From IMG/VR virus record IMGVR_UViG_3300026263_000010, positions 1 to 27,955 of that record: a DNA stretch of 27,955 bases. One strand, written 5' to 3'. This document shows, in pieces, positions 1,347-27,955 of the stretch (its first letter is position 1; the number at the start of each line of letters is the position of its first letter). Both the position numbers and the translations under genes were made by a program. Source of the DNA: a virus. Below the pieces are notes generated by a model, which ran no database searches, was not told the DNA's origin, and saw only the letters and a program-made list of their open reading frames with translations.

Positions 1347-1834
1347 GTATACCTCGCATATCACGCAAAGAAGAAATGATTGCGCTTAGGGATCAGTATA
1401 GTGATCTTATAGGACTACCATGGACAGGACGACGTATATACGGATGTTATGAAATCATTCGTAAATATTATAAGTTTATGCATGATGATGATTTACCAGA
1501 TTTCAATGCACGAGGAATTATCACTTTTACTGACGAAGCCATTGAAGAAGGTGGTGCAGAGAAATTATGGGAGAGTGAATGGGGAGAGGAGACTGACTTC
1601 TCTACATTAGTTGAAGAAGATGTAATTCTTTTTAGATTGTATACCAATCCATTAGGAGGATCATACTCAGCACCAATGGGCAAAGCCCCAAATCATGGAG
1701 GGATTTACCTAGGTAATGGTTTTATGCTTCATCATCCTTATAATTCCACCAGTATGATTGCAGATCTTGAGAGAGATGGTAATCGTATATGGAATACAAG
1801 TTGTATTGGTGCAATCCGTAAAAAGTCTACATAA
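1343..1834 (+). CDS. NlpC/P60-family hydrolase, lambda tail K-like
   Basis: This 163-residue protein is predicted to be a cysteine peptidase cutting peptidoglycan stem peptides. The N-terminal part has GLPWTGRRIYGCYEIIRKYY with the candidate nucleophile Cys35 at the head of a helix. A middle LPDF and an EDVILFRL strand (about 92-99) follow. Then comes NHGGIYLGNGFMLHH, with His118 as the likely second catalytic residue and His130/131 downstream. The order C-helix, DV-L strand, NH-G-YLG-MLHH is that of the C-terminal NlpC/P60 domain of lambda gpK-like tail proteins. There is no signal peptide, so it is more likely virion-borne or holin-dependent. The start overlaps the preceding stop. It could serve as tail lysozyme or as endolysin; being next to baseplate genes favours the tail role. 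Confidence 0.8.
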   Translation: MSIPRISRKEEMIALRDQYSDLIGLPWTGRRIYGCYEIIRKYYKFMHDDDLPDFNARGIITFTDEAIEEGGAEKLWESEWGEETDFSTLVEEDVILFRLYTNPLGGSYSAPMGKAPNHGGIYLGNGFMLHHPYNSTSMIADLERDGNRIWNTSCIGAIRKKST

Positions 1835-6111: not shown

Positions 6112-6644
6112 TGGCATACGGATTTCTAAAACCAGTTGCATCACTGAATGGTCTACCCTGCTCAGGGCATGGTCTTTGCTTACCAGCCACTATCCACTCA
6201 GTGCAGTGGTGTAAGACCCCTCCAGTGCCCTACAGCATTATCATTAAGAATTTTACATGCTGGTGGCCACCCCAACCTCTAATCCCCATTACAGGGGTCA
6301 ACCCAATACGAGCGACGGTGATGGTGCAGTTTATCCCTATCATGATTGGTGGAGATACATTCATGCCCCATATCTCGCCGTGTACAAATATCATTATATA
6401 CATCTGCCCATGCGATAAGGGTGTGTGTCCTATCCCTACACCCATCATCTGCAGCGCACTGACTATTGAGGATGCTGGTGGCGTGGGACATCCTAGAGTT
6501 CTCTTCCCAACTACTCTGACAGTCTTTGCATTCAAGATCCCCATTGCGAGGATCCTAGACCCACTGGGTGTAGGATTTCCTGGATTCTCATATCCATGCT
6601 CCTCAGTGGTTGCCTTTGGACACCCAACTGTGCTATCATCCTGA
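6111..6644 (+). CDS. Cys-rich PAAR-like tail spike-tip protein
   Basis: The ATG at 6111 overlaps the previous TAA by one base. In 177 residues it has GHGLCLPATIHS near residue 19 and, at the end, GHPRVLFPTTLTVFAFKIPIARILDPLG followed by C-SSVVAFGHPTV. That matches the PAAR cadence (h-P-t-VF-n-k-p-AR-D-G ... C-S-VV-G-p-V) of proteins that cap the tail spike and carry a bound metal. Ten Cys (17, 23, 34, 50, 91, 99, 101, 106, 114, 163) and several His (19-21, 29, 87, 127, 171) could bind metal. It is longer than minimal PAAR proteins such as T4 gp5.4 (about 97 aa) and some consensus residues differ. Position before gp6, as gene 5.4 in T4, supports the call. Confidence 0.65.
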   Translation: MAYGFLKPVASLNGLPCSGHGLCLPATIHSVQWCKTPPVPYSIIIKNFTCWWPPQPLIPITGVNPIRATVMVQFIPIMIGGDTFMPHISPCTNIIIYICPCDKGVCPIPTPIICSALTIEDAGGVGHPRVLFPTTLTVFAFKIPIARILDPLGVGFPGFSYPCSSVVAFGHPTVLSS

Positions 6645-6663
6645 GGTAGTTTAAAAGGGACTA

Positions 6664-6813
6664 ATGCCTAAGAGAGCAACGACTGGACTGGTTAAAGATG
6701 GTTGGGTACCTGGCAAACCGAAAATAACTCGGCAGGGGTCGTCTGGGAATACTAAATATTCCGCAACATCTCGTAACAGTAAAGGTAAGCGTTATCGTGG
6801 TCAAGGTCGATGA
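6664..6813 (+). CDS. Tiny basic protein (49 aa)
   Basis: ATG at 6664, preceded by AAAAGGGA as a plausible Shine-Dalgarno. The protein starts MPKRATTGLVKDGWVPGKPK and continues with a Ser/Asn/Lys/Arg-rich tail ending in RYRGQGR. It is very basic and probably disordered. Its TGA at 6811-6813 overlaps the next ATG (6810), so the two tiny genes are likely translated together. An inverted repeat GGAATA-CTAAA-TATTCC lies inside it at 6746-6762. Function unknown; a place between the spike-tip and wedge genes suggests an assembly role or a minor virion part. Confidence 0.6.
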   Translation: MPKRATTGLVKDGWVPGKPKITRQGSSGNTKYSATSRNSKGKRYRGQGR

Positions 6814-6974
6814 GAGTTGAGACCCGAGAGTCTATGGAGATGCTTTGGTCTGCTAAATGGAATCTTCCTAAAGCAGCAGAGCATTGTGGTCTGTCATTGA
6901 AAGAAATGAAGATTACATTCAACGAGTATTGTAATTTCCATCCCCCCACTTATGAGGGGGAATCTCAACAATGA
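6810..6974 (+). CDS. Small helical protein (54 aa), cyanophage-type
   Basis: The start overlaps the preceding stop (ATGA). The 54 residues start MRVETRESMEMLWSAKWNL and contain KAAEHCGLSLKEMKITFNEY, a helix-turn-helix-like arrangement (helix, CGLS turn, helix), then a short polar tail. The segment W-x-x-K-W-N-L-P-K-A-A-E-H-C-G-L resembles small conserved proteins I associate with T4-like cyanophages near the baseplate genes. DNA binding is possible by shape but unproven. The stop codon at 6972-6974 directly precedes the late promoter. Confidence 0.65.
   Translation: MRVETRESMEMLWSAKWNLPKAAEHCGLSLKEMKITFNEYCNFHPPTYEGESQQ
6943..6960 (+). terminator. Strong G/C stem-loop at gene end
   Basis: Five C (6943-6947) can pair with five G (6956-6960) around an eight-base loop, in the last codons of the small helical gene and 15 nt before the late promoter. 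No T-run follows, so it is not a classical intrinsic terminator. It may stop or stabilise the upstream mRNA and insulate the late transcript. Confidence 0.4.
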
Positions 6975-6983
6975 CTATAAATA
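6975..6983 (+). promoter_or_regulatory. T4-type late promoter CTATAAATA
   Basis: The sequence contains the exact T4 late element TATAAATA (6976-6983) with the extra upstream C often seen in cyanophage late promoters. It needs the phage sigma-like gp55 and gp33 rather than a -35 box, and no TTGACA is present. It starts directly after the stop codon of the preceding gene and ends 24 nt before the GTG at 7008, so it would drive the 48-aa gene, gp25, gp6 and the giant gene. Confidence 0.75.
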
Positions 6984-7007
6984 AAAATACCGTGTGGAAG
7001 AGGTCTC

Positions 7008-7154
7008 GTGGCTAACAGTCCTGTGCCTGATCAAAGTGATGAATTTATTAAATCGGGGATGGTGTTAATAACCGACCCACGAAGTGATAAATATCTTCAT
7101 AAGGTGAGTAGAAACATCCAACCACCTGTGAGACCAAAGAAAATAGAGGGTTAA
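7008..7154 (+). CDS. Small protein (48 aa) upstream of gp25
   Basis: GTG at 7008 is preceded by GGAAGAGG as a good Shine-Dalgarno and sits just after the late promoter; an internal ATG at 7059 is less well placed. The product starts VANSPVPDQSDEFIKSGMVL and ends in NIQPPVRPKKIEG, a polar protein with Pro-rich basic tail. Its TAA at 7152-7154 abuts the ATG of gp25 at 7155. No family recognised. A weak late-promoter-like GATAAATA lies inside at 7086-7093. Confidence 0.6.
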   Translation: MANSPVPDQSDEFIKSGMVLITDPRSDKYLHKVSRNIQPPVRPKKIEG

Positions 7155-7568
7155 ATGCCTGCTTACAGATTCAGATCAGACCAGTACGTCAGTAGAGGGT
7201 TTAAGGACTTAGCAATTTCCTTTAATTCAAATCCTTCTACTGATGACTTTGGCGCTGTCAAGAATGAGAGAGCAATCAATCAATCTGTAAGAAATTTGTT
7301 ATTGACTATATTAGGTGAAAGACCTTTTCAGCCGAACATTGGAAGTCGGGTGAAGGGTCTTCTTTTTGAGCAATGGGATCCATTCGCGGCGGATGCTATC
7401 AAGGGTGAAATTCGTGATTGCCTTAAGCGTCTTGAGCCACGGATTACTGTACAGGATGTTAGTGTCCGTGATGACAGTGATCTGAATGGAATTCAAGTTG
7501 AGCTTGAATATTTGATTACTGGAGAAAATATAACCCAAGAAGTAACATTCCTCTTAGAGAAGACCTGA
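7155..7568 (+). CDS. 25: Baseplate wedge subunit gp25
   Basis: gp25 is the small wedge protein of contractile tails that bridges the baseplate hub/tube region and gp6 and helps start the sheath; its fold resembles lysozyme-like tail proteins of the GPW/gp25 family. The 137 residues (T4 132) contain the family hallmarks: NERAINQSVRNLLLTILGER near 38-57, FQPNIGSRVKGLLFE near 59-73, an amphipathic helix DAIKGEIRDCLKRLEPRI with the EPR motif, then VQDV and a beta hairpin to the C-terminus. SD GAGGG at 7146-7150. The stop is one base before the ATG of gp6, as expected for an operon. Confidence 0.93.
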   Translation: MPAYRFRSDQYVSRGFKDLAISFNSNPSTDDFGAVKNERAINQSVRNLLLTILGERPFQPNIGSRVKGLLFEQWDPFAADAIKGEIRDCLKRLEPRITVQDVSVRDDSDLNGIQVELEYLITGENITQEVTFLLEKT

Positions 7569-7569
7569 A

Positions 7570-9732
7570 ATGTCTGCTATCCCATCACAATTAACATCGC
7601 TAGACTTCTTTGAGATTAAAGAGTCTATCAAATCCTACCTTAGAACGCGTAACGAGTTTACAGATTACGATTTTGAAGGTAGTGCTTCGGCGTATCTTAT
7701 CGATACCCTTGCTTATAACACGTATTATACGGCATTCAACGCTAACATGGCGTTGAATGAAGCATTTCTAGAGTCTGCTACGGTGAGAGACAACGTAGTC
7801 CGCATTGCAAAGCAGTTAAATTACACCCCTAGGTCAATTAAAGCACCCAGAGCGTGTGTAACTATCCGGGTGCAGACACAAGCTTCTCTAAATGGCACCA
7901 CATTTCCAGAATTCTGCACACTGGCTGCAGGAGATGTGTTTGTTGCTCGTAACTTTAACGACACTTACACCTTCTGTGTGACTCGTGACCTCCAAACCAC
8001 CGTAGATAGCGCAACTGGCATCGCGGTGTTTGACCCTGTGCTCGTTTATCAGGGCAATTTGCTTAAGTTTAACTACACAGTTGACTATACGAAGAGACAG
8101 GACTATGTTATCCCCACTGAAAACGTAGACACAGCCTTGGTTTACGTCGATATCTCACCTAACGCACAGTCGCAAGAGATTGACACCTATAACCTCGCTA
8201 CAAACGTAACTGCGCTCAACGACACTTCTCGTGTTTACTACCTTGAGGAGTCTGATGACCTTAGATACCGTCTAATCTTCGGTGATGGTGTCTTAGGACG
8301 TAAATTGATCGATGGTGAATTCATCAGACTGTCTTATGTGACCACTTTTGGTGAAGAAGCAAACGGTTGTAAGGACTTTGCCTTTATTGGCACCATTAGA
8401 GACAGTGATCAACGTGCAATTTCACCTGCAAACATCGCAGTTGTCACTAGAGAGTCTGCAGCAGATGGTGAAGCACGCGAAAGTGCGCTATCCATCAAGT
8501 TTAGAGCACCCAGATCCTTTTCTACTCAAAACCGAGCAGTGACTGAAACGGATTATGAGCATATTGTCTCAGAGATCTATCCGCAGGCAGCATCTGTGAC
8601 CGCATATGGTGGTGAGAGACTCACTCCACCCATTTACGGTAAAGTTTACGTTGCTATCCGTCCAAAAACGGGTAATAAACTGAATGAGACGACAAAAGCA
8701 AGAATCAAAAATGATCTGAAACCTTATACAGTTGCATCAGTCGATCCTGTGATCATTGATCCTACTACTTACTACATTATTCCTAAATCTTACGTTTATT
8801 ACGACGGAAACAACACCGATAAGAGTGGCGCTCAACTAGCAAGTGATGTTTTGCGTAATGTTGACCAATTTAACAAGAATGGTCAAAACAATCGCTTCGG
8901 TGGTCGCATTGAGGCGTCGAAATATAACTCAATGCTCGATAATAGTGATCCTGCAATTTCTGGTAGTGTCACTCAGCTGACTATTGGTCAAAATCTTGAC
9001 CAATTTACGTTTGGTAACGTATTTACTCAATGTCTTGACTTTGGTAACTCACTTTACAACCCATCTAACTTTTCAGGCACTCCTGATGGCGGTGACGGCA
9101 CTCCTTGCTCTACAGATTCAGATTGTCCAGAAGGTCAAGTTTGTATAGATGGCACTTGCCAAAGCATCGGTGGAGGTTGTGATCCTTCCTTCTCTGTGGT
9201 CAAATCTGGCACATTCTATGCAACAGGTTTCACTGAAGACCTTGTTAACCTGACCATGCAAGGTGTTGGCACTAATTCAACTGCCCCTGTTATATCATCC
9301 AGCTCCATTACTGACGAAAATCAAGTTTTGGTCCCCGTCAACATTAGAGATGACGGAAAAGGCAATCTTCTCCTTGTTACTAAAAGGGACGAAGTTGAAG
9401 TTGTGTTAAATAATGCTGTTGGTAGCGTTGATTATGAAAACGGTCAAGTTTGTGTAGGACCCATTGCAATTGGAGGCACGCCAGATGATTCAGAGCGTCT
9501 GCCGATCCAAGTATTGCCATATGGAGGAGCTATCACAATTCCACCAGGCGTCGATCCCACATTGTTTGATATTAGCGTCAATCCAATCGATTGGAAGACT
9601 AATGACATTTCAATCCCCAACTTCGATCCTAACAACTTTAGTGGTTACAATTACGGTGACCCAACTGGGATAAATATCATTGATTATCCCACGGATAGTT
9701 TTACATATCCAGTAGATACCTCCTGTTTCTGA
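7570..9732 (+). CDS. 6: Baseplate wedge subunit gp6
   Basis: gp6 forms the ring of the inner baseplate in T4-like tails and is the core of the wedge (T4 660 aa; here 720 aa). The N-terminal part, FFEIKESIKSYLRTRNEFTDYDFEGSASAYLIDTLAYNTYYTAFNANMALNEAFLESATVRDNVVRIAKQLNYTPRS, is the classic gp6/gpJ-like start with Y-FN-NM-NE-FL-SA-R. Residues about 240-400 hold RLIFGDGVLGRKL and SFSTQNRAVTETDYE, also typical of baseplate J/gp6 proteins. The extra length lies near the C-terminus and includes a five-Cys insert at residues 513-537 (see findings). It follows gp25 by one base and precedes the giant gene by 5 nt. Confidence 0.92.
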   Translation: MSAIPSQLTSLDFFEIKESIKSYLRTRNEFTDYDFEGSASAYLIDTLAYNTYYTAFNANMALNEAFLESATVRDNVVRIAKQLNYTPRSIKAPRACVTIRVQTQASLNGTTFPEFCTLAAGDVFVARNFNDTYTFCVTRDLQTTVDSATGIAVFDPVLVYQGNLLKFNYTVDYTKRQDYVIPTENVDTALVYVDISPNAQSQEIDTYNLATNVTALNDTSRVYYLEESDDLRYRLIFGDGVLGRKLIDGEFIRLSYVTTFGEEANGCKDFAFIGTIRDSDQRAISPANIAVVTRESAADGEARESALSIKFRAPRSFSTQNRAVTETDYEHIVSEIYPQAASVTAYGGERLTPPIYGKVYVAIRPKTGNKLNETTKARIKNDLKPYTVASVDPVIIDPTTYYIIPKSYVYYDGNNTDKSGAQLASDVLRNVDQFNKNGQNNRFGGRIEASKYNSMLDNSDPAISGSVTQLTIGQNLDQFTFGNVFTQCLDFGNSLYNPSNFSGTPDGGDGTPCSTDSDCPEGQVCIDGTCQSIGGGCDPSFSVVKSGTFYATGFTEDLVNLTMQGVGTNSTAPVISSSSITDENQVLVPVNIRDDGKGNLLLVTKRDEVEVVLNNAVGSVDYENGQVCVGPIAIGGTPDDSERLPIQVLPYGGAITIPPGVDPTLFDISVNPIDWKTNDISIPNFDPNNFSGYNYGDPTGINIIDYPTDSFTYPVDTSCF

Positions 9733-9737
9733 GATAG

Positions 9738-12700
9738 ATGCCACACAAGAATATCGCCATTTCGGATAGAGTTGAAAATCAACTCCCAGAATTTATTAGG
9801 GAGGAAGATCGACAATTTGTTGATTTTCTCTTCCAGTATTACAAGTCTCAAGAAAAAACAGGTCGTCCTTACGATATTCTGAATAATCTTCTGGGTTATC
9901 TGGATCTCGACGGTTATACCTCAGACGAATTGTCAAATGACACACTCTTATTGAGTGATATTGGTCTGTACGATGAAACTATCACAATTGAGTCGATTAA
10001 TGGTTTCAAGGAAACCGATGGATCTATTAAGATCGATAATGAGGTAATTTACTACGAGACTGTTACTCGTGGACCTGATGCTATTGTTACTCCAGGTGTT
10101 TCTCCTGATCAGTTTGATAAAAAGAAACAACAACTAGAAAATCCCTTCCAGTTGTTTGATGGGACTAGAAATAAATTCCCTCTTAGTTTTTTAGGCACTC
10201 CTGTAAATCCCCCTTCAGTAGATCACCTAATTGTTATCACATATAATGAAATGTTGGTCCCTGGGACTGATTATTTCCTTGAAGGCAATGAGATTCGTTT
10301 TGCTGTTGCTCCTCGTGAGAGATCTGGTGCTGATGACTCTGCATTCACTGAAATTGTATATTTGGTTGGGTATGCCGATCAAGCGATCGTCACAACTGAT
10401 GCCATTCCCTTTGAAGAGTATCAAGGTAAGAAAGAATATCCTCTCAGAGTAAATACACAACCATATACCCCAACTTCAGCAATTGGTCTGATTGTTAAGA
10501 AAAACACTCGCCAACTTGAGCCATATACCGACTATACAGTATATGGAAGTGAGATTATCTTTAGATTCCCACTGGGTGCTGCTGATGATATTCATATTCG
10601 CTCTATTGAGTATATTGCCCCTTCTTTTGGATCTGGAGCATCTGCAGTTGTCTCTGTCGATAGTCTTGGTCAAGTTGACCGCCTAATTCCTAAAACTGGT
10701 GGTAGTGGTTACAGACTAGATTTTGAACCTAAAGTTGTAGTCCAGCACAACACAGGTGTGGGTGCGACTGCCAAAACTTTGGTTAGTGGTATCAAGGATA
10801 TCAACCTAATTGATGGTGGACAGGGTTACACGTCATATAACCCTCCTATCGCCCTTGTAGGCGCTCCTACAGGTGGTACACTGGCAAAAGTCACTCTGAC
10901 TGTAAATGATACAACAGGTCAGGTCGATAGTCTGACTATTATGAATTCTGGTAGTGGATATGACTTTATCCCTGCTATTTCGTTTCTTAATCCTGGTGGT
11001 TGCAAAATTGGTCAACCTACAATTGATAGTGAAGGTCGTGTAAACATTGACAGTATTGCTGTCGAAGAATTTGGACTGAACTATAGTAATCCTCCTATTG
11101 TTTATCTGGATCCAGCACCTGAGGGTGGTATTAATGCTCAGGCAATTTCCAGAATCAACCAAGACGGTCAAGTCTATGAGATCGTTATTACAAACAGAGG
11201 TAGAGAGTATGTAACCCCACCTAGAGCAAGAATTATTCAACCTATTGGTGCTCAGGTGCTTGACGTTACTGTCGCATCTGGTAACGTTACCAATATCGAA
11301 ATGCTAACAGGTGGCAACGGTTATACCGATGCTCCTTCTGTGTATATCGTCGATGATAGAAAAGATTCTTACGGCGATCCTATTGGTGGCACAGGTGCAA
11401 CTGCTGCTGCAACTATCTTTAACGGCGAAATCACTGATATCAACATTACCAACTTCGGTACTGGATATTCTGAGACAGAGCCTCCTAAGATTTACATTGC
11501 TGAGCCTCAAGCAGCAAGAGCATCTGTTGCTGTTGGTTTCAACGAGCTGACTGGTTACGAGATCATTGAAAAGGGTAGTGGATATTCCCCTTCTGCATTC
11601 TTAGGATGTAGTCGTGGTGTATCTGGTGCTGTTGGATATGACATCCTCCATAATGAGATCTATGCAGGTGAAGCAGCACTGCGTCAGTCTACTCACCCTG
11701 CAGCATCTACAGTTATTAACCTAGATTCTTTGTTTATCAAAGAAGTCTTTGACAAATTTAGAAGACAATATCTTCCCAATATTAAGATTGATTATTCTGT
11801 AATCAATCCAGTCCAAGTAATTAAGAGTATTAGTGACTTTTACATTAGTAAAGGCACTGAGCTTGCTACACAGTATCTGTTTAAGATCATGTTTGGCGAG
11901 CAGGTGGATATCTACTATCCCCGTGAAGAAATCATCTCACCATCTGCTGCAGCATGGGTTGTTGACACGGTGCTGCGTGCTGAGTTGATCTCAGGTGACC
12001 CTGCTAATCTGATTGACTCACAACTTATCCAGTATGCTGATTCTGTTGACCTTAGTGTCAAGGCAGCAAATGCTCTGATTGAAAACGTTATTACCATTAT
12101 TGAAGGTAAGGACACTATCTACGAATTGGCAATCTCTGAAGAGACGCTAACTGGTAGTTTCATCATTCCTTATAAGACGACTCTAGTTGAGCCGTTGACT
12201 ACAACTGGTCAGATTATTACCGTTGACTCCACGATTGGATGGCCAGAAAGAAACGGCACCATTCGTATTAACGATCAGGAAATCGTACAGTATAAAGAGA
12301 AATCACTTAACCAGTTTATCGAATGCACCAGATCACAGAATGGTGTTGTAGAAGACTGGGATCCTGGCACGATTATATTCTCTGAAATCTTTGTATATGT
12401 CAATAAGGGCACATCTGCTGAGTGTAAACTCAGAGTGCTTGGTATTGCAGAAGCAGGTACAACTATCCTGGAGGATACTGGATCTTACTATCTGCAAGGC
12501 GACAAACTAAAGGTTGCTAAACTTGGATCTTCAGATGAAGATGAAAGACTGTCTTCCTGGCTGTATAACGTTAAGAAACTAATTCAGGTTACCAGTATCA
12601 CCCCTGGTGGTGTTAATAACCAGACTGCTACTGTTGTTTGTGGTAACCCACACGGTCTACTGGTATCCGATCAGGTGACGATTTATGGTGCTAACCCTGT

Positions 12701-15700
12701 TGTATTCAACGGCACCTTTACCGTTACTTCTCGTATTGATGCATTTCAATTCACATACCAGATCAATACTCCCACAGAGATCATTCCTGAAGGTAACATT
12801 CTTCTCTCTGTGGACCTAAACAGAGGTAAGTCTGATGTCAATTCAATCAACAGTGTTGTTAGTGAGTTTACAACAAATATCCAAAACTCCTTCTTTAATG
12901 ATGATCATGTTTATGTTGCTTCCTCTGGTCTACCCAATTATAGGGTGGGTCCTTTCACAGGTTCGGCACTGATTCCTGGTAACCAGCGTAAACTGCTTAG
13001 ATTCCCCAGACTTGTCCAAACCATTTCTGAGCGTCAAGATATCTCAGCAAACACCTCGATTGGTGCTTGGGTGAATGGTGTGTCTATCTGGGCATACAAG
13101 TCTGGCGACTTTGTTAGATTCGGTCCTCTGACTGACATCACTGTTACTAACATTGGTCAAGACTATGATGCAGGATCCAAACCTGCTCTGGAAATTACTG
13201 GTGGCGGTGGTACAGGTGCTACTGGTGAAGTTGTTGTTAATGGTAGTCTGACTTCCTTTGTTGTTACTGTAGAAGGTAGCGGATATACAGAATCTCCTCT
13301 AGTCTCCATCGTTGGTGGTGGTGGTATCGGAGCAACTGCACAAGCTATCGTAACGGGTGGTCGTGTCACTAAAATCCTGGTTGAGCAACCAGGTACTGGA
13401 TATACCTCACAACCTAGCGTTTCAGTTACTGGTGGCGGCGGTACAGGTGCTGAGGCAACTGCAAATGTCCGTGGTCCTGTACAGAGTGTCAGTATCACTG
13501 CCAATGGTAGTGGTTACACTGAGTTGCCTAGCATTAGAGTTAACTCTGGTGAAGGTGCTTTGGCACAACCCATTGTTATCAATGGTCGTATTGTTTCTAT
13601 CGCTATCATTAACTCAGGTAGTGGATATACTACTGCTCCCACCATTGTAATCAATGGTGATGGTTTTGGTGCTATTGCAAGAGCAATTATCGGCACTGTT
13701 GGTGAAGACAAAGGTAGAGTCCTTAGTGTTGAGATCAGCAACAAAGGTATTGGATATACCCAAGGTCTTACTACTGTCAGACTTGAGTCTGTCGGTGACT
13801 TTGCTGAGTTTACTCCACAAGTTTTTGAGTGGAATAAAAACCTTCAGTATGATCTTACTGCTAAGTATGATGGAGCACGAGGATACGTCTTTACTGGTTT
13901 GAATAACCAGTTTGGTGGTGAGTATGCTCACCTCAGTGATCCTAAAGAGCTTCGTTATGTGGTTGGCGATAACGTCTTCCTTAATGCTGTAACACAACAA
14001 TTTCAAGAGGTATCATCTAATTATGAGCACTCTCCTATTCTGGGTTGGGCTTACGATGGTAACCCAATCTACGGTCCCTATGGTTACATTGACCCAACTG
14101 ACCAAAACAGCGGAATCAGAAGACTTCGCACTTCATATAAACTAAAAGATAACGTTGTCTATGATCTAGCAACTAATCCAAATCCTGCCCGTATTGATGG
14201 ACCTGCACTGGATTCATATCCTGCTGGATCGTTTGTTGCTGACTATGAGTACGACTTCCAGTCTGGGGATCTTGACAACTATAATGGTCGCTTCTGTAAG
14301 ACACCTCAATATCCTGATGGCACCTATGCATACTTTATTACTATTGATGCATCTGAAGCAGGTGTTGCAGAATTCCCATATATCCTCGGTCCTCAGTTTA
14401 ACTCACTGCCTGATCCATGGAACTTTACCCAAGGTGCAACTCAGGAAAATATTCCACAAAACGTTGTAAGGTATAGAGATCCTTATGTCAACGTTGACAT
14501 CGATGTTGATCGTCAACCTAACCAGGAAGCAGATGTCCTAACGACTGAGATTGAAGGTTATCCTCTTATCTTTGAGGTCCAGGATAGTAATAGTGACGGA
14601 ATCATTGATGCTAATGAGCAACAAGAAGTCCTTGAGATGTCTGAAGAGGCAACCCTACAAATCTATGATTACTTCCCTCAGGTTTCTGAAGAGTCTAGAG
14701 TTGACATCGAAGTTGAGACAACTACTCAGTTTGAAGATGCTCAGATTGACGGTTTCGTTATTGAAAACCCAGGCCAGTCCTATCAGGTTAATGATACCAT
14801 CTTCTTTGATGATCAAGACACTGGTGGTTTCGGTGCTTCTGCACTTATCGAATCGGTTAAGGGTCAAGTCATCCAATCATACAGTAAGGAGATCATCGGA
14901 GATCGTCCATATGGTGTGATTAATACAGCAGCTAATCACGACTTGCGTCAGCAAGATGAGTTGATTCTTAACTCTTCTCCCGTTATTGATAACACCAACA
15001 AGAACTTCAAAGTTAAAGTTGTATCTGGTGTTGAGCGTATCAATGTAAATCAGATTGGTGTTGGTTACAACGAAGATATTCCTCCTACGTTTGAATTGAT
15101 CACATCTGCTGGTCAAGATGGTCAACTAGAGATTGTCTTACAAAATACTGGTCAGATCAACACAGTCAACATTATCAACTCTGGTAATGGTTATGATCCT
15201 GAGGAGCCTCCTCAAATTCGTGTCTCCCATCCACAGCAGTTTAAGAAAACTCGCTATTGGTTGACCGAATACATGGAAGCAGATGGTATCGTTGAAGTCA
15301 ACGATATTAAGGTTACCTCACAACGCTATACCTATATCTGCGGTAAGATTACTGAGACAGATGGTGATGAAGCTGGTTTCCTTGCCAAGTTTGATGACTT
15401 GGGTCAGAGAATCTGGGAGAGGACTCTCATTCCTACTAATGCCCTTCAGAAGAGGGCTGAATTCCTCAAGATGGTGGTCAATGACACTCCAGAAAACGAC
15501 CTCATATATGTTACAGGCCAAACAAAGGATCCTGACAACGATCTGTACAACCCAGACATATGGTTAGGACTTTATGAGTCTGGATTCAACAATGCAAACG
15601 ATCCTGACGGTATCCTGCAGTGGCAGAGAGCAATCGCTGGTATCTCTGGCAGTACTAGAAGAGACTATGTAACTTCTATCGCTCTTGATCAAGAGCAACG

Positions 15701-18700
15701 TATCTACCTTTGTGGTTATACCGATACCAACTCTGTTGATCCCGATGATATGTGGATCATCCAGTGTGGTATTGAAGGCGATCTGGTTGAGAAGCGTAAA
15801 GTTGCATCTCAGGATGATTCTGAGAAAATGCATCAGATCATGATGATCTCCGATGATAGATTCTTCTTTATTGGTGTTAACGACCAAAATGATGACTTGA
15901 TCTTCGGTGAATTCTTCTACGATGGTGCAAACCTTGAGATTGATTGGAGCAAGCAGATTCCTACGGTGGGTGGACGTGTTGTCAACCCAACAATGGTCAT
16001 GGATGACTATGGTTCAATTATTGTTGCTTGGGATGTCTTTAATTCTGCAGCATCTAAGTACGATAAGATCCAGATCAACAAATTCCTCCTTTCTACTGCA
16101 CAAACTACTTGGGATTGGAGTAAGACCGTTACTACTACTGGTAATTTCCTTGAAATGCACCATGCAGGTATCTCATATGATCAGTGGGGTAACTACACTC
16201 TCGTTTCTGATGTAATTGGGGATCAGAATCAGAGATATTCAGTTATCTCTTACATGAAGTATGACGGTACTCTGCTTCATCAGACAAAAGTTGATGACAC
16301 CGCAAGTATTGGTTTCCAAGCGTATACTCATGCTTTGGATAACTCTGGTGACACCATTCTTGCTGTCAACCGTCAGCAGTCTGATCAGCTCGTCTCCTGG
16401 AGAATGGGCAACAGTGTAAATCCTGTTGAGGATACCACTAAGCAAAATCTCGGTACCTACAGCTACTTTAGTCAGTCTGATATCACTCATGATGCTGCTG
16501 TTTATAAGTTTGATGGCGGATCTCTGAAGTTTAACGCCGTTGCACCTATCACTATCTCTGACTTGGGTCTGACCCCTGTTGAGTGGAGTGGCAGAATGTG
16601 GATGTCCATGAATACTACAGTATGGAATACTGCTCATGAGCCCACACTGTTGCATGTTAACGATGCAACTAATACCAACTCAATTACTGCAACTATTCAA
16701 GGTGATAATACCGATCCTGACTATCAAAAGGTTATCCTTTACTTGAATGGCACTCAGGTTGCTTCTTCTGTTGCTGCAACTAACTGGGATGCCTTTGCTG
16801 CTGGTGCATGGGTCCATGTTACTGTCCAGAAGCGTCAAGAATCTCTGGGTCTGTATCGTTATGAGGTATTCATTGGTGGTAATCAACAGATCACTTATCA
16901 GAGCACTACTGATGTTGCTCTTGATGATGTTGTTATCTGTGGTCCTTCCAGTCCTCCAAACACAAGCAATTCTTTCCGTGGTAACATCGACGACTTTGTG
17001 CTCGATGATGCTGCTCAATATCCTGGCACTTCATACACTGTGCCAACTGCTGAAATTGCAATCACCACATCCAACTCCGATGTTGCACTGATCAAGTTTG
17101 ATAGAGCACATACTCAGCGTGCATCATACACCCTGACTGGTCTTAATAATCATAGCACTGTTGCATTCACTGATCATGTTGCTGGAATGACCTGGACAAG
17201 TATTTCTCCAGGAGCAATTTCTGTGTGGAATGAGGGTCCTGGTGGTCTGCAAATTCTGGACATGTCCCAGACTTTCTCCACGTTGATCCCTGGTACATAT
17301 ACACTATCTTCAGTGTATGACCAGTATGCATCTAAGACTTCTACCATTCCTTCACCTCGTGGTAAGAGGTTAATTATCTCTGCTGATGTTATCCCCAAAT
17401 TCTACATGAGGGATGCTCTATATCAGAAGATTGATAACGTCCAACAGTTTACATTTACCCAACCAATTAAACTTACTAAGTATTCTATTCTGCAGCAGTT
17501 TAACGATGTTGGCACTACTACTGCTTTTGGTACTATTACAGAGGTCCCAACAGGCACTGTGCAGAATCCTGGTCTTGGCACCGAGTATTCTGTGGGGAAA
17601 ATCTACGGATCCTTTAATACTTCTGATAGATTCCGCACTACAACTGTTGGTGGAGATATCAACCAGATTGAAGGCACCTACTTCGATGCTGAAGAAGAAG
17701 AGTCTCCTTGGCAGCAACTAACTGCATATGCACAAGGTGATCGTGTCTACAACCAAAAGAGAATTTATGAGGCACAGAGTGCTGGCACATCTGGCACCAT
17801 TGCACCTCAGCACAACACTGGTGTTGTTTCTGATGGTGTCATTAACTGGGCATTCATTGACGATGCAGGTAAGTTTAATATTGATCTGACTGAGCATCCT
17901 TATCCTAGACCCCAATATACTGGTCTGGATATGCCTGAGTGGTTGCCACATCGTCTATATGCTACTGGGCAGCGTGTATGGTATAAACTCAACGTTTATC
18001 AGGTTGCTGTTGGTGGCGGTGGTGTTACTACAACGACTCCTCCTACTCATACCACTGGTGACGTTTCTGATGGCACTGTTACTTGGTCATTTGTTGAAAC
18101 TAGCGAGGCAATCAGTCTTTATACTCGTTTGATGCCTTATGATCTAGGCAACAACTACCGTATTGAGATCTTAGAAATCCATCCTGGATCTAACTATATT
18201 CCTAATGACGTTGTTAGCGTCAATATTGGGAATATCACTCTAACAGAAGATGAGAAGTCTGTTGAGATCTCTGGATTTGCATCTGTCAAGAAGATTCGTA
18301 TTACTGCACGTCTTGAGAAAGATGTCATTCTTTCCAGCAGTCTTAGGACTTCTAAGGTCTATTGCACATCTAATTCTCCACACTTCTACAAGGAAGATGA
18401 AATTATCTTCACTGAAGGATTCTCTGGTGATCAATATAACGGATCATTCTTCATCGATGATGTTATTGGATCTAGAGAATTTACATTTGGTATTAGAGCG
18501 ACAGCAGTGTCTGATCCAACGTTTGTTAACAATGGAATTGCTAACGTTAACATCTATGCTAAGCATCCTACTCTGATTTTCACTAGAAATCATCAGTATA
18601 ACTTCGAGCTTAGCGATGTTTCCAACTTCGGTTACTATCTGTCATTCTCTCAGGACAACCAGTATAAACTGGAGTATTCCTTCAATAATACTGTTAGAGA

Positions 18701-21700
18701 AGGCACTCCTGGTATCGCAGGTGCAGGTTCAAGCACTCCATTCGTTAAATTCTTGGCGCTTGGTGATGTTACTAACATCTCTTACTACTTCGACCCATCA
18801 AGGACTGGTGATAACTCCCCAGTTGGAGTAAACTCATACATTGACGTTATTACGACTCCATATCAGGGTAGATTCAACATTAGTGAGATTGTAAGCGATA
18901 CTGAATTCAAATTCCCACTTCATAAAGAACCTGAGCGTAGTAACGCTGAGATTGGATCTGATGATCAAGGAAATGAGTATTCATACTACTCTACGACATC
19001 TACTAGAGCAGTTGGTCCTATTAATACGATCAAACTTGTTTCTCCTGGTGGATTCTATAAGAAACTGCCTATTATCTCCGATATTGCATCCTTCCGTCAA
19101 ATTGAGAAGGTTGTGATTGATGATGGTGGCACAGAATATGCACCTGGAGTTTACTACGACGTTCCTGTTGATGGAGACGGTGAAGGTGGTAAAGTTACCG
19201 TCACAGTCCTTCTAGATGATGAAACTGGGTCTGGTACAATCGCTAGTGTCGATGTTGCAGACCCTGGTAAAGGTTACACCATTGCTAGCGTAGATATTGA
19301 CGCTATCACTGGTATTCTTGGTCCTACACTGTCTGGATCTGGTGGTGCTGTCAGCGTTATCATTCCTAGCGAAGGTAGTGGCGCATCTGTCTTCTTGACA
19401 GGTAAAAACATTGGTAAGATTAAGAGACTCAAAAATAATGAGTTTGGTTTCGGATATTCACATGACTACACTCTAAAACCTGAAATTACCTTCCCCGTTA
19501 ACCTCCAACTCTTCAATACGTCGATTCTTTCCGAGATCAAGATCACAGATCCTGGTGCGGGTTATACATCGACACCTGCAGTTGTTATTGACGGTGGTGG
19601 TGGATCAGGTGCTGATGCAGTTGCCATTATTAAGAATAACCGACTCAATGAGATTATCATCAAGAATCCTGGTGCTGGATACTCATCTGAGCCTACAATT
19701 ACGCTGAAGTCTGAGTTTAACTACGTTGTTAACCTTGACCTCAACTATCTACAGTTTAACTTCCCTCATGGCATCACAACTGGTGCAGAAATCCAGTTCC
19801 GTGCTGAAGATGTCGGTAGTACTGAAGGTGTCCTTCCTAAGCCCTCTAGCGCAGGTTTGACCTCTTTGGTTGCTGGTCAACTTTACTATGCAATCGCTGG
19901 TCAGGTAAATTCGCTGGAATCCGACCAAATTCGCTTTGCACTGACTTTACAGGCAGCACAGGCAGGTGATTACATCACATTCCTAACTCAAGGTAGTGGT
20001 CGTCAAGTATTGCTTACCGAAGTCTTTGGTGGTAAAGCAGAAGCAGTTGTTGAGACATCTCGCTTCCTTGAAGGCGAAGAAGTCTTCCAAGGTAGTGCAG
20101 TTGAGCTTTCAAGTGCAACTGGTAAGGTTTCTACTAATACTGGTTGGCAAATTGGTCCTAAGATCCTCAAGATCGTTGATTATGATGGAGATTGGAAAAT
20201 TGGCGAAAAAGTCATTGGATCTATCTCTAAAGCGTCTGGTATCATCGATAACCTAAGCATTGCTCGTGGTGTGCTTAATATTGGATCTTTGACGAAGACT
20301 CCTGGTAAGTTTATCGATAATGTCGGTAAACCATCCGAAATCGTCCAAAAAATCCAAGATTCCTTCTTCTATCAAAACTTCTCCTACGTTGTCAAGTCTG
20401 AGATCCCCATTACCAAATGGAAGACTCAAATCCTTGAAAACAACCACCCTGCTGGTTTCAACATGTTTGGACAGTTGCAAATCGTTGGTGGTAAGGATGT
20501 TTCAGGTAGAAAGGTCGGTACTGAGTTTACGAAGGAAGTTAACATCAATAACTACTCCAACGTCAACCAGATCACATCTTTCGGTGCAGCACAACCAATT
20601 TACACCGATTACAACAATACTGAAGTCCTCTTCCGTAAAAAGCGTCTGACTTCCTCTGAGGAAATCTTGACCTCTATCGTGAAGAAACTTGATAATATCC
20701 AAGAGCAGTTTAATGGTATTGATAAGCAATTCCCACTTACTGTAGAAGGTGAGCAGATTATCGTCCAAGAGAATCAGTTGTTGGTTACTATCAACGGTGT
20801 GATTCAGGCACCTGGAGTTTCATATAGCGTTGTTGGTGGTAACCTTGTATTTGATGAGGCACCAAAACCAGCATCTAGAGTTAACTATAGGTCTCTAGAA
20901 ATTACTCCTACCACAATTTACAGAATTGAATTGTATTCTGGTCAGGCAGGTCCACCAAACTTTGGTATCTTCCCAACATTGGGTCAGCAAGTCCAAGGTG
21001 CAGATAGCGACGTTATTGCGACTGTTATCGACTCTGGCACGACTCATATCGACGTTATCAACTTAGTTGGTGGCACATTCAACCTGAATGAAGAAATTAA
21101 GCGCACCACCCTCTTCTCTGGACTTATCCTGAGTGTTACTGCTATCAATAGCGAGACTATCTTCCAGTTTGGTGAATCCATCAGCAATCTTGATGGTGAT
21201 ACTGCCATCATTGAAGAAACTAATATCGATGATCAGGGTAATGTTACCGATGCCATCGTAGTCAGTAAGACCTCAGGTACTGCACAGTTTGAAACTGGTA
21301 TCTTTGATCTGAGACTGAATGAGTTTGTCTACTCAGCAGGTTCCAAGATTGCTGGTCAGATTACATTCATCTCTCCTTATATTGACCCCGCTACTAGCGA
21401 CCCTGTTGATGAGTTGATTATCAACCCAGGATCTACATTCTATGGTCTGCTGTTTGAGCGTCTGGTTAGTATTACTAATCCTAATGTTATTATCGATAAC
21501 ATTTCTCAATCTTCCATTACACCTACTGAACTTTACGATTCTGCTAGCAGAATTAATAATGACTTCCTTGACTTTGAAGAAGTTAGAAATACTGAAGTTG
21601 AATACACTCAATTGGCAGGTGGCAACTTCCAAGAAGGCGATATTGTTATTAACAACAGAGCAAACTACGGCAACCCCGTTTCCGTATTCCATGGTGCTGC

Positions 21701-24700
21701 TACCAATAGATTCAAAGATGCTTCGGCAATGATCCTTGGCAACAAAGATCAAATCGTTGATTTTGCTGAAGCAGAAATCGCTGTTAAGCACCCCAGATAC
21801 TACTTCCCTGGTGATGTTATTACTAACTCTTGGAGTAGGTATTCTGACGCATATCGTCTGATTCAAAAGAATAAGTCATACATTGCTAATAAGGCATACG
21901 ATGAGATGATGACGCAATATACGTCACTCGCTGTGCCTGATCCTAATAAGTGTATCCGTGACCTTGAGTTGTATATCGATGCTATCTCCATTGACATTTT
22001 CCGTGGTGGTAACGTCTATACTCGTAAACTTTGTGAGAAGTTCTTTGATTCTCTTGGCAATTTTGTGTATGTGAATAATGAGTCTGCTGAGACTCGTTAT
22101 GGATTTGAAAAAGCAAAAGATATGATGAAGTTGGCAATCACCAACAATCTGACTGCTGTTTTCCAGGTGCCAGCTAATGCTGGTGGTGACAGTCTACACA
22201 CATGGGCAGGTGGCACAGCATCTAACGCAGTACAGTCTGGTGGTGACTATACACACACATGGACAGGTGGCACAGCATCTAACGCAGTGCAATCTGGTGG
22301 TGACTATACACATACATTTGTTGCACCTGCTGTAGTAAATGGAGTTACATCAAATACAGGTAACTTACCAAACATAGTTACAGATGTAGTATATACTGCT
22401 TCATCTGGTGATATGATCATCACCTCTGCTGGGCATGGGTTAACAACATCAAATACAATTTCTATTGCTAACAATGCACTAACCTTTACTTGTGGTATGG
22501 GTACTGGTTCTCCACATACATGGGTAGGTGGCACAGCATCTAATGCAGTAACAGTTAATGGTAGTGTGCAGAAGGATGTAACTGATGCAACATACACACC
22601 TACAACTGGTATCTTAGAATTAACGATTGGATCTCATAGCTATACATCTGCTGATACAATTATTATCGCAGCAAATTCTCTATCATTTACTTGCACTAAG
22701 GATCAAGATCAAACTACTCACACATATCCTAGATCTACTGACCCTGTATATAATACGTCTCTTCCAGTTATATCTGCAACTGGTACAACAATTACAGTTA
22801 ACGTTGGTGCAGTAACTGGATGGAAGACATATCCTAGAGCAACTGACCCTGTATCTGGATCAAATATTGCTATTATAGGTACAACCACAGATACCATTAC
22901 TATAAACGTAGGTCCAGCACCTATCGTAAATCATAATGTTACGAATGCAACTTATGATGCAGTATCAGGATTGATGGAAGTGACTATCGGTAGTCATAGT
23001 TTGACTGCTAACACAAGTGTTAGGATTGCTGATAATTCATTGACATTCTCTTGTTTGATGGATGGTAATTCTTCTGATAAGACTTATCCTAGAGTAACTG
23101 ATCCTGCATATCAAACAGCTGTTAACATTACTGCTGTAACAGCAACAACAATCACTTTAGATGTTGGTGCAGCACCTATCGTAAATCATAATGTTACGAA
23201 TGCAATTTATAATACAGGTACTGGTGCAATTGAACTAACGATTGGTAGTCACTCCTTATCAGAAGGAACTGCAATTAGAATTGCTCCTAATTCATTGACA
23301 TTCACTTGTTTGATGGATTCTAATGGCACTACTCACACATATCCTAGATCTACTGACCCAGCATATAATACTGCTCTTAATATTGATGGAGTAACTGCAA
23401 CCACAATTACAGTCCATGTTGGTCAGTCTGTTGGTAGACCTAATGCAGGTATTACCTATACCCCTTATAGTGAGATTGATCATAGTGGTTACGATGGTAA
23501 CGGTATTACTGCTGACCCATCACCTAACGATCCGTACGGCACTAACGGTGCTAACCAGTCCAACAATGGCACTGACAACTGCAGCGATGTCCAAGCATCA
23601 ATTACCACTCTCTATGATGTGGTTGATGAAACTCTGCTGAATGGCACGCTGGTTGACCTCCCCAGTGAGTCCTTTGGATCTTATTCTCCTGGTCAAATCA
23701 AGTGTCGTCGTGACATCGGTCTAATGATCGATGCTTTGGCAGAAGACATTTCTCAGGGTGGTAACTATAACATCATCGAATTCACTAAGAAGTATTTCGA
23801 TGCTGTTGGAGCACCTATTACTAACGGTCTAATCGGTGAGTATGCAGAATCTTTGACTGCTATCGATAAGGCAATGCACTTGTCATTCCAAGCAATCAAC
23901 AACCTTCTATATTATCAAGTCAATACCAGAACCTTATCACCAGGTTTGATGCTGAAGGATCCTACCACATATCAAGGATCTTACAGCGGTGGTGAGGCAG
24001 ATCTGGAAGAATTTGATGTGTCTGATGCAGTCTACACACCTGCAAATGGTCTAATGGTTATTACCATTGGCAATCACACACTGACAACTTCGGATACTGT
24101 TACGATCCGTCCACACTCTCTGACGTTTACTTGTGCTGCCGATAACGATGAAACTCTCCACGCCTATCCTCGTGCTGGAGATCCTGCATTCAACACGGCT
24201 CTTGCTATTAGTGCTAAGACTGCTACTACAATCACAGTTGACATTGGATCAACTCCTCTAGTCCAATACACCCCAACTGATGCTTTATACGATCCAGCAA
24301 CGGGTGACATGGAATTGACTATCGGAGCACACTCTCTTCAGTTGAATGACTATGTGACCATTGCCAACGATTCCTTGACATTAACATGTGATATGGATGC
24401 TAATGGCAGTACTCACTTATATCCTAGATCTACTGACCCTGCATCTGGCAAGCGTCTGTTTATCCATGGTACTACTGCAACTACCATTACTATTAATGTT
24501 GGTGCATCTCCTGATGATCATCAGTATGTCCACGATTTCGTTGTTGCTGCTGCTGGTGCAGTCAGTAGTGGTGGTGGATATGTACACACATTTGTCAAGG
24601 CACTGGATAATGCAATCTTCACTGGCGGTGGCACAACTGCCAAGTATTTCGACCCCAATTACGATTCAGGCCGAAATGAAACAATCCAGAATTGTGCTAA

Positions 24701-27700
24701 TGTCCAGGCATATATCGCTACGCTCGTAGACATCTCTACGACTGCGATTACAGCACAAAATCTTAATAATATTAACGCTCTCGCGAGCATCACTGACGGC
24801 ACATTCGTTGCTGGCGAAAATATCCGCACAACGAAGATTGCATATAAGGATCGCTCTGGTGGTTTGTTTATTGTTGGCGACACCATTACTGGTGTTACCA
24901 GCGGTGCAACATTTGAAGCAATCGGATCTAACTCTGGTCTGAAGTGGATCTTTGCCGATGCTATCACAGGATCCTTCCAAGATGGTGAGTATGTTACCAA
25001 CTCCACCACTGCTAACCAAAACGGTGTTTCTCTAAGTGTTATTCAGAAATACAAGAGACTCAGTGGTGAAAAATCTATCAAATTCCCAGCTACTGGATAT
25101 CTGGTTACTAGAGATAGTTACGACTTCTCCTTCGGCAACACTGCAGACTTTACCGTCCAAGGTTGGGTTAGAGCAGATAATCTAAGCACCACACAACATC
25201 TGTTTGACTTCCGTCGTCTGTCTGTTTCCTCTGGTTTGAGAATTACTCTTCAGACTAACGGTGCAATCACAGTTTACAATGGCACATCTCAACTGCTGAC
25301 TGGTGGCACGCTGGTTGCTAACAACTGGCATCACGTTGCAGTTGTCAGGACTGCTAGCGTCTTGCAACTCTATGTTGATGGCGTGCAGGTTGGTGGTAAC
25401 TATGCCGACACTAATGATTATGGTTATGCTGCCATCTACATCGGTGCTGACTTCAACGGTGCTAGTCAGTTTACTGGTTACATGGACAACGTGGTTGTTA
25501 AGAATGGACAGTCCGACTTCAATACTGGATTTGTGCCTCCTACTCAGATCGACTACTCTAACCAGTATGTTAAGTTTGGTCTTGATGGTGAGCAACCATT
25601 CGTCATAGATAATCAGGAAACATATGCTATCTACACTGGTCAGCGTATTTCTTCTGCTGCTGTCAAGGAACTTAACTACGATCAAAACTTTGCGATCATT
25701 GAAAACGTTGACCTAGGTAGATCAGATCACAGAAACTGTGCTGATATTATCGACCTCAACGCTGCATGGATTGCTGAAGAGGCAGTCGGAAGAATGGAAG
25801 CAGCATTCCCTGATTTTGTCGTCCCTGGCAACAACGTGGCCGAAGGCACATACCAAGGTACCAACAACTGTGTCAGGGATACTAAAGACTACATCATCGG
25901 CGCTCTGGTCAAGGACTTGAGAGACGGTGGTAACTACAACTCTCTTTATACCGCTCGTACTTACCTTGAGGCATCAGGCAAACTGAAGCATGTTAGTAAC
26001 GAGATTCTGCAAACTCTGTATGCATGGGATCAGGCATTTGTCCTTTGTAAGTATGCAATTACTACAACTGACATAGATCTGAAGGGTGTATATACTCAGA
26101 GATTGAGAATTCCTAATAACTTCTCTTCTCCTGCATCCCAATCCATCCAGGATGAGTTTGATACTTTGGGTCGTGAAGTACTAGAAGTCTTGGCACCTAA
26201 TCCTGATATCTTCAGAGACACTGGTGTCTTGATCTGGAAAAACCGCGACTATATCGCAGAAGAAGTTGCTGGATATATTCTCGATAAGTATGAGATTGAT
26301 TTTAACGGCACTCTCACACAATTCCACATCATTCCTGGTGGTGGTCGTCCAACCTGTGAGAGAGATATTAAGCAATTCATTCTCCCTGCTGTAATTGCTG
26401 ACCTTTGCACTGGTGGCACATACAACGTGGAATTACTTATTGATCAGTATTTGGATAATCAAGACAACATCCTCCATGTTGAGCATGAGTTGAATCCAAT
26501 GCTTGATGCATTTGAGCACGCTAAGTATCTCACACAGAAAGCAGGTAACAACTTACTCCTTTCTCCTGGAGAAGTTGCTGCAGACTTTGGCATCCCAGCA
26601 TGGACACAAGAAGATTATCACACACCCCTGTTTACTGCTCGTGGTGCATTTAGAGATGATACCATCACTATCGATGATGAAGGATATCCTCAGGATAGCG
26701 TTTCCAACTGGAATCGTTATAAGGATGCTACCAATGCTATCAAGGCAAATATTGATCTGATTGCACATGAAGCAGTCGAGACAATGAATGATATGTCCAA
26801 GTATGCCCTATTCAAGATCAATGGTGGTCCTGTTAACTGTAGTGATGACGTTAAGGATGTCCTTAATGCTCTTACCCATGACCTCAACTACAACTGTAAT
26901 GAGAGGACATGGGATGCAGCAAGTCTCTATGTTGAAACAGAGGATAACTCACTGAAGCATATTGAAGACGATTGGGAAGCAACTGTCACTGTCATGAAAC
27001 TTGTCAGAGACATGGCAACCGTAACCATGAGAAATGGTTTTGGTAGAGATTACATTCCTGGAAATGATCCTGGTAATGTTGATCTTTCCTCGTTCGAAGC
27101 AAACTCCAGAGAGCAAGTCTTTGCTGATTGTGCTGATGCTATTGATACAAACATTCGTTGGATTGCTGAGCAAGCAGTTAAGGCAGGCACCACACAGTAT
27201 CCTTCACTAAGTATCAACGGTGGATCTAGTGCAATGTGGTGGAAGGAGTTTACTCCAACCAATGCAACTTATGCTGCTGCCGCTGGTGTATTGACTCTTA
27301 CAATTCCCAATCATGGATTGAATATTGGTGAGCATATCAGTATTGCAGCAGATGGTCTTATCTTCACTTGCAGCATGGATAGTTATGGATCTAACCATTC
27401 ATATCCACGCAATACCGACCCTGCTTATGAAAAACGTATTGTAATTGTAGATGCTGATGTAGATACAATCTCAGTTAATATAGGTCCAACACCTACTGTT
27501 AATCATGACGTAACTGATGCAACATACACACCTACAACAGGTGAATTGGTATTAACAGTTGGTACTCATAGCATTCCTGCTCCAACAACATATACTCCTA
27601 CTGATGTTGCATACGATCCTGTCAGTGGTATATTGACATTTACTCATACTGCTACTGGAGGAGCATTTGAAAATGGACAAGTAATCAAGATTGCTGATGA

Positions 27701-27955: not shown

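Follow-up and report, generated by a model that had tools for sequence, protein, structure and literature searches.

A giant protein in the gene 7 position of a cyanophage baseplate cluster is probably an expanded member of the gp7 family

The IMG/VR virus record IMGVR_UViG_3300026263_000010 was analysed over its entire length of 27,955 bases, here called the window. Its forward strand carries a giant open reading frame (9738-27953) that starts with ATG and runs through 6072 codons without a stop. The 3' end is open, and since the window is the whole record, the gene is cut by the end of the contig and not by a stop codon. The 18-kb frame is real and constitutes the first three quarters of a cyanophage tail-baseplate protein of about 8,100 residues. 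The giant probably belongs to the gp7 family of baseplate wedge proteins and comes from a cyanophage of the Kyanoviridae; in it, a small chassis would carry added host-contact modules. The start codon lies five bases past the end of a gp6-like gene, and the other five frames across the same 18.2 kb each contain 144 to 761 stops, with no open run longer than 180 codons.

The end of the gene was located by searching viral contigs with the final 818 residues of the window protein. The contig IMGVR_UViG_3300026269_000002 (59,805 bp) was 99.94% identical to window positions 208-27955 over 27,749 bp, and in it the gene closed after 24,411 nt, encoding 8136 residues (880 kDa, isoelectric point 4.5). 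Only 3 of the 6072 residues in the window differed from this closed copy. A short piece of the window, 131-207, was unaligned with this otherwise near-identical contig. Two more contigs were 99.98% and 99.90% identical to the window across the portions that they covered. Five related contigs were joined from loci; four contained complete genes of 7070, 7072, 7072 and 7295 residues, while the fifth gene ran off its contig. The ratio of nonsynonymous to synonymous substitution rates (dN/dS), calculated against two relatives, was 0.06-0.36 in every scored 500-codon block along the gene. Blocks were scored only when at least 100 codons were aligned, so that block 6001-6500 of the first comparison, with 79, was left unscored. 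The highest values were found in blocks 4501-5000 and 6001-7000, which contain or adjoin the beta repeats described below. The original prediction, made from the window alone, had described a single frame of more than 6000 codons that was far longer than T4 gp7 and unlikely to result from sequencing or assembly error. All of this held; compared with the 1032 residues of T4 gp7, the giant is 5.9 times as long within the window and 7.9 times as long in full.

The position in place of gene 7 had also been recognized, and the gp25-like and gp6-like genes upstream bear it out, but assignment to the broad gp7 family is supported by homology in two collinear segments and not by position alone. Short gp7s follow gp6 in phages YB07, pf16 and X1 (503, 523 and 498 residues, the last found with the pf16 protein as query). 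By blastp, the pf16 protein matched the giant at three collinear places, residues 7-70, 648-816 and 3537-3583. The YB07 and X1 proteins matched the middle place by blastp, and YB07 matched the third as well in a profile search, while the proteins of Melnitz, phiN3 and HTVC008M matched both the middle and third places by blastp. Residues 621-790 matched 500 phage records at an expectation (E) value of 0.01, among them those of phages named after Stenotrophomonas, Sinorhizobium, Pseudomonas and Pelagibacter.

The connection to T4 gp7 was made by comparison of profiles (HH). A profile of the three short gp7s aligned with T4 gp7 645-829 (E = 2e-8 against four T4-type gp7s). A 71-row profile of giant residues 606-910 aligned with T4 gp7 727-758 (E = 2.9e-8 against T4 alone, 5.2e-9 against four gp7s), as did the profile of the core helices, residues 648-735 (E = 3.1e-9 against T4 alone, 3.5e-10 against four T4-type gp7s). 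Moreover, a 16-row profile of residues 3470-3600 aligned with T4 gp7 863-890 (E = 3.8e-5 and 6.3e-6, respectively). As controls, nine other T4 proteins gave E values of at least 0.077 with the core profile and at least 0.14 with the C-terminal profile, so that among the ten T4 proteins compared the core matched gp7 only. The reversed sequences of the ten T4 proteins gave at least 0.25 with the 606-910 profile, at least 0.35 with the C-terminal profile and at least 0.11 across the core profiles. A minimal-gp7 profile reached T4 gp7 alone at E = 7.5e-6; its values of 0.0015 for T4 gp18 and 0.012 for reversed gp8 mark the noise level of that profile. T4 gp7 thus shares with the giant the gene place, the core helices and the 863-890 segment, but has about 640 residues ahead of the core, whereas the giant has about 7,600 within and behind it. 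The gp7s of pf16, YB07 and X1 correspond to the bare chassis and have no matches of the giant's three repeat families.

The giant is a new sequence of an already known type of cyanophage protein, and the gp7 chassis reading is what is added here. All four slices of the window protein matched phrog_701 (6136 positions; E from 0 to 7e-203), as did the last 2,015 residues of the complete protein (E = 7e-290). This family is labelled virion structural protein in the PHROGs category 'head and packaging', a category that was set aside because of the baseplate neighbours and the gp7 homology; the members examined are encoded after gp6 and hold the gp7 core. The first 700 residues matched 352 of 50,697 phage records, of which the first word of the name was Synechococcus in 280, Cyanophage in 52, Prochlorococcus in 18 and Marine in 2. 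In 12 cyanophages the size of the protein encoded after gp6 was compared. Six have giants (S-TIM4, 6603 residues; S-SZBM1, 6619; S-WAM1, 6737; ACG-2014d, 6817; P-TIM40, 7351; P-RSM6, 8573, longer than the present one) and six have shorter proteins (S-B68, 1915; S-CREM2, 1937, derived from coordinates in PMC10665884; S-SSM7, 3007; S-CAM1, 3032; ACG-2014f, 4225; P-TIM68, 4307). Across 22 genomes the protein spans 498 to 8573 residues; the gp7 core was found in 17 of them by blastp or tblastn and in the four T4-type phages by profile, S-CREM2 being outside the comparison. The rarity implied by the original prediction did not stand, since half of the 12 cyanophages have at least 6603 residues here, several GenBank records already name cyanophage proteins at this place gp7 or 'baseplate wedge initiator', and the protein of a relative has been seen in virions. 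The gene was expected to occupy a large share of the genome, which is correct within bounds: 11% in S-SZBM1 (19,860 of 177,834 bp) and 13% in P-RSM6 (25,722 of 192,497 bp). The S-SZBM1 protein (S-SZBM1_208, YP_010656691.1, 'baseplate wedge initiator') is a homologue over the whole length at the same place after gp6, with 57% identity over giant residues 1-4139 and 51% over 6899-8133. P-RSM6 CPXG_00128, P-TIM40 PTIM40_99 and S-WAM1 gp159 are the same gene with other repeat numbers.

The C-terminal extension (residues 3600 to 8136) has 8 matches of a helical 97-residue repeat, 17 whole or partial matches of a 77-residue beta repeat and a LamG domain, and ends in an immunoglobulin (Ig)-like region indicated by sub-threshold Pfam matches. 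The helical repeats within the window are at residues 4045-4133, 4627-4719, 5341-5440, 5502-5602 and 5671-5760, with a fragment at 5805-5830. In the beta repeat, C, H, D, YPR and DP are nearly invariant; 12 of the 37 rows were dropped from its alignment (8 helix-type or misplaced, 4 odd beta rows). The beta-repeat pair matched 328 phage records, every one with a cyanophage or marine-virus name, and baseplate, short tail fibre and long tail fibre proteins were among the 40 matches listed. Residues 4147-4565 were missing in all four close relatives compared, and residues 5830-6349 and 6447-6552 in three; the fourth lacked 5920-6349 except for three residues. These relatives had 3, 3, 3 and 5 beta-repeat matches compared with 17 in the giant, so the repeat arrays make up most of the extra length. 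The S-SZBM1 homologue, 1,517 residues shorter, had no beta-repeat match at E < 1e-3.

Mass spectrometry places this type of protein in the virion. PMC9146016 reports the S-SZBM1 homologue in virions (724 kDa, 71 peptides, 13.5% coverage) with an exponentially modified protein abundance index of 0.41, compared with 0.23 for the gp6-type protein, and PMC10665884 reports 91 unique peptides for the shorter protein at the same place in S-CREM2. The same S-SZBM1 study saw no long tail fibres by transmission electron microscopy and described S-WAM1, P-RSM6 and P-TIM40 as lacking fibres or fibre genes (PMC9146016). S-SZBM1 and these three ranked closest among the named relatives in the search with the first 700 residues. 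In S-TIM4, whose giant is ORF_101 (6603 residues), 20 genes mutated during passage on three hosts (PMC6224464).

Several results weigh against the assignment to gp7 or against its simplest form. None of four T4-type gp7s, T4 included, matched the giant directly by blastp, so the link to T4 gp7 rests on profiles. Neither the N-terminal 110 residues alone nor the stretch 735-910, at the place of domain V, matched T4 gp7 in HH comparisons. The giant hit none of the T4-type gp7 domains PF21427, PF21428 and PF21456 at E 0.01; T4 gp7 matches all three and pf16 gp7 none, and the giant was therefore not filed in the T4-type subfamily. The phage baseplate wedge subunit family PF23786, which matches pf16 gp7 above its cut-off, reached the giant only below it (residues 691-732, E = 0.001). 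The AlphaFold model of residues 1-1075 was weak (predicted local distance difference test (pLDDT) 64.6, predicted template modelling score 0.29). Its input came from 285 open frames of at least 800 residues, of which 217 qualified, 76 were non-redundant and 70 were aligned with the window. The two best-ranked chains in VIA-align were gp7s, 9f4a_A0 and 5iv5_BJ, matched at T4 domain V with Z scores of 9.7 and 9.5, but other tail proteins scored 9.5 and 9.3. These are ties, so the fold comparison only agrees with the sequence result. In addition, the S-SZBM1 table (PMC9146016) gives the name 'baseplate wedge initiator' to a second protein of 615 residues as well, so the label alone proves little. 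Finally, ACG-2014d carries both a giant and an annotated tail fibre protein; the size of the giant is thus not a simple replacement of fibres, and the correlation is unclean.

Three other explanations were considered. The giant could be a fusion of gp7 (approximately the first 3,700 residues) with a formerly separate tail adhesin, a precursor that a protease cuts during assembly. This is rather unlikely, although S-SSM7 divides the same material between two genes, both named gp7 (L116 19659-28682 and 29748-38753). SSSM7_101 (3007 residues) holds the gp7 chassis and matches stretches of the giant between residues 4 and 3686, while SSSM7_103 (3001 residues) matches only the repeat-rich extension, in stretches between 4149 and 6559. 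Since that phage encodes the extension separately, fusion or fission has happened. However, one annotated frame is retained in all six giants examined, and the S-SZBM1 peptides are listed under a single 724-kDa entry (PMC9146016), although peptides cannot tell a cut chain from an uncut one.

The giant might instead be a tail-fibre-like adhesin that merely sits in the gene 7 place, with the function of gp7 lost or taken by VrlC. PMC7029224 describes T4 gp7 as absent and apparently substituted by VrlC, and PMC3037559 counts gp7 in the non-cyanophage core, although the latter paper expects cyanophages to have divergent copies of such functions. This explanation is improbable, being weakened by the core homology in two collinear segments and by HTVC008M, which carries a gp7-core protein after gp6 and, separately, a gene annotated as VrlC. 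Least credible, with almost no weight in our judgement, is the idea that the frame or its extra repeat arrays are an artefact of assembly. Repeats are easily mis-assembled, and the four close relatives lack two beta-repeat stretches, 4147-4565 and the greater part of 5830-6552. Nevertheless, three contigs were at least 99.9% identical to the window; two of these span the whole first array and the third covers it from window position 23042 on. These contigs may come from related samples and so be not fully independent, but P-RSM6, an isolate, has 19 repeat matches in the 8015 of 8573 residues examined, and dN/dS is low throughout the gene.

With the giant read as a gp7-family protein, its sequence indicates that two inserts, of about 500 and 2,600 residues, interrupt the small chassis and that an extension of about 4,500 follows it (Table 1). 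At the N-terminus, AlphaFold predicted helices at residues 8-15, 18-23, 25-38, 44-49 and 51-54 with low confidence, and pf16 gp7 residues 5-71 match residues 7-70 of the giant. The first insert is present in the giants compared and not in S-SSM7, where residues 5-111 match giant residues 4-110 and residues 101-566 match 606-1070; distant relatives, also without it, span window residues 1-1075 in about 450-580 residues. The second insert, approximately residues 830-3470, includes a weakly matched endosialidase-like barrel, a GxGY array, the YHYH and SBBP domains, and sub-threshold LamG and CBM5/12 matches. The closed copy has 15 GxGY matches at E < 0.01. Among the modules of surface proteins that had been predicted, the GxGY repeats, YHYH, the SBBP propeller and one LamG domain were confirmed, while the other LamG and the CBM5/12 remained below the cut-off. 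The earlier interpretation as a whole is thus partly supported.

Table 1. Features of the giant gene and its upstream neighbours, in window coordinates
Feature	Position	Strand	Basis
gp25-like baseplate wedge / sheath initiator	7155..7568	+	PF04965, phrog_261
gp6-like baseplate wedge protein, directly upstream of giant	7570..9732	+	PF21379, phrog_219
Giant, probable gp7-type baseplate wedge protein, residues 1-6072 of ~8136	9738..27953	+	3' end beyond window
Predicted N-terminal helices, residues 8-54; likely counterpart of gp7 core-bundle helix-turn-helix	9759..9899	+	AlphaFold, low confidence
First insert, ~residues 110-606: beta domain and first GxGY repeats	10065..11555	+	Relatives' lengths, GxGY matches 319-588
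gp7 core helices, residues 648-735, 'SKGT..YLFKxxFGE' segment	11679..11942	+	HH to T4 gp7; three short gp7s by blastp
Beta domain after core helices, residues 739-912, at place of T4 gp7 domain V	11952..12473	+	VIA-align
Small beta barrel, residues 943-1027, like phage endosialidase stem domain	12564..12818	+	Z 8.1; Pfam below cut-off
Second GxGY repeat array, residues 1131-1342	13128..13763	+	Repeat matches
YHYH domain, residues 1393-1538	13914..14351	+	PF14240 in both slices, E 6e-13 and 1e-8
SBBP beta-propeller repeat, residues 1970-1997	15645..15728	+	PF06739 above cut-off
LamG-like domain 1, residues 2271-2422	16548..17003	+	PF13385 E 1.5e-4, below cut-off
CBM5/12-like stretch, residues 2658-2685	17709..17792	+	PF02839 E 0.007, below cut-off
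gp7 C-terminal chassis segment, residues 3477-3587, 'W...HPAGF' motif	20166..20498	+	blastp: pf16, Melnitz, HTVC008M, phiN3, S-B68, others; HH to T4 gp7
C-terminal extension, helical 97-residue repeats between beta arrays	21870..27017	+	Five in window
First beta-repeat array (77-residue unit), residues 4214-4562	22377..23423	+	Without counterpart in 4 of 4 close relatives compared
Beta-repeat pair, residues 4761-4922, kept in relatives	24018..24503	+	Repeat matches
LamG domain 2, residues 5130-5254	25125..25499	+	PF13385 E 7e-21
Start of second beta-repeat array, residues 5841 on, cut by contig end	27258..27953	+	Repeat matches

No sequence match to solved structures was found for residues 1-1500 (E 0.1) or 3001-4500 (E 0.01), and an NCBIfam search of five slices at E 0.01 gave no match. 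Residues 4501-6072 matched one S-layer-domain entry (E = 2e-5) over a stretch overlapping LamG domain 2. The model of the beta repeat could be trusted only from its residue 168 onwards (mean pLDDT 59.6), and its best PDB matches were weak (Foldseek E = 0.011, VIA Z 5.9). Among 34 viral structure predictions matched at E <= 0.001, the named ones were Synechococcus-phage proteins and one from an uncultured Caudovirales phage.

The gene order, gp25, gp6, giant, YHYH protein and T4_gp9_10_N protein, resembles the T4 order 6-7-8-9-10. The downstream neighbours were taken from the near-identical contig, in which the T4_gp9_10_N protein is encoded two genes after the giant. The gene immediately after the giant (L006 18613-20247) also encodes a YHYH domain (E = 4e-34); its weak Ig-like matches are paralleled by similar ones in the last 100 or so residues of the giant. 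Further upstream, on the forward strand, window 1343-1834 encodes a 163-residue protein with a weak, sub-cut-off NlpC/P60 match (E = 7e-4) and matches to phrog_2552 and phrog_30, possibly a tail-associated peptidase. A 1268-residue phrog_22792 protein (2305-6111, +) is followed by a PAAR-motif protein (6111-6644, +; phrog_281, E = 4e-19). In ACG-2014d and S-TIM4 a large 'baseplate wedge subunit' gene and then a PAAR gene precede gp25 as well.

The frame and its closure, the gp7 homology, the synteny, the selection on the gene and the presence of a relative's protein in virions are directly supported, and from these we infer the copy number, the location, the host contact and the triggering proposed here. 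The chassis, consisting of two helical segments near the N-terminus and a segment at about 3480-3590, would pack with two copies of gp6 and seat gp25, and six copies per virion would be expected, as for gp7 elsewhere. Into and behind it, thousands of residues would have been added as GxGY arrays, YHYH, propeller, LamG and helical and beta repeats. Because long fibres or their genes are reported lacking in the four closest named relatives, we read the giant as an array for host contact that is covalently built into the baseplate: at the rim, its modules would bind or act on the host surface, replacing or joining the fibres that other myophages attach. The suggestion that it may form a long host-binding structure is accordingly plausible. 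YHYH is predicted to be a metal-dependent hydrolase (PMC7824862), and some modules may therefore cut rather than bind. Host binding would then pull on the gp6-gp7-gp25 wedge and trigger contraction of the sheath.

Phage XM1 offers a comparison. According to PMC10457771, its gp7 orthologue, gp17 (242 residues), forms a core bundle with two gp6-type chains and carries the tail spikes at two points, a loop within domain I and the C-terminus; the authors propose that the wedge relays the pull of the spikes to the sheath. In the giant, the first insert and the C-terminal extension are at places comparable to these attachment points, as compared by description and not by alignment. The XM1 spikes are separate proteins, however, whereas the modules of the giant are part of the chain.

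The gp7 homology proposed for the giant contradicts the published absence of gp7 in cyanophages. PMC7029224 describes T4 gp7 as absent from pelagi- and cyanomyophages and seemingly substituted by VrlC, while PMC3037559 lists gp7 with the non-cyanophage core and expects divergent copies of such functions in cyanophages. HTVC008M, the reference phage of PMC7029224, encodes VrlC in a gene of its own, distinct from the one after gp6, whose product of 1016 residues has both gp7 segments. A search of titles and the starts of abstracts, the coverage of which left out most subscription papers and bioRxiv preprints, found no paper arguing that these proteins have a gp7 chassis.

A wider proposal, held only tentatively, is that gp7 may be an expandable chassis across contractile-tailed phages, accepting host-contact modules at two or three fixed sites and ranging from about 500 to more than 8,500 residues. 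In one cyanophage clade the covalent array might have taken over the work of the long tail fibres, with the repeat arrays as a fast-changing tuning element. Placing the giant cyanophage 'structural proteins' in the gp7 family names a likely anchor for a very large virion protein and makes the idea of host contact testable in one gene. If the modules are host-contact parts, a single gene would encode some of what determines which hosts abundant marine cyanophages can infect, and its length and repeat number could be read from metagenomes.

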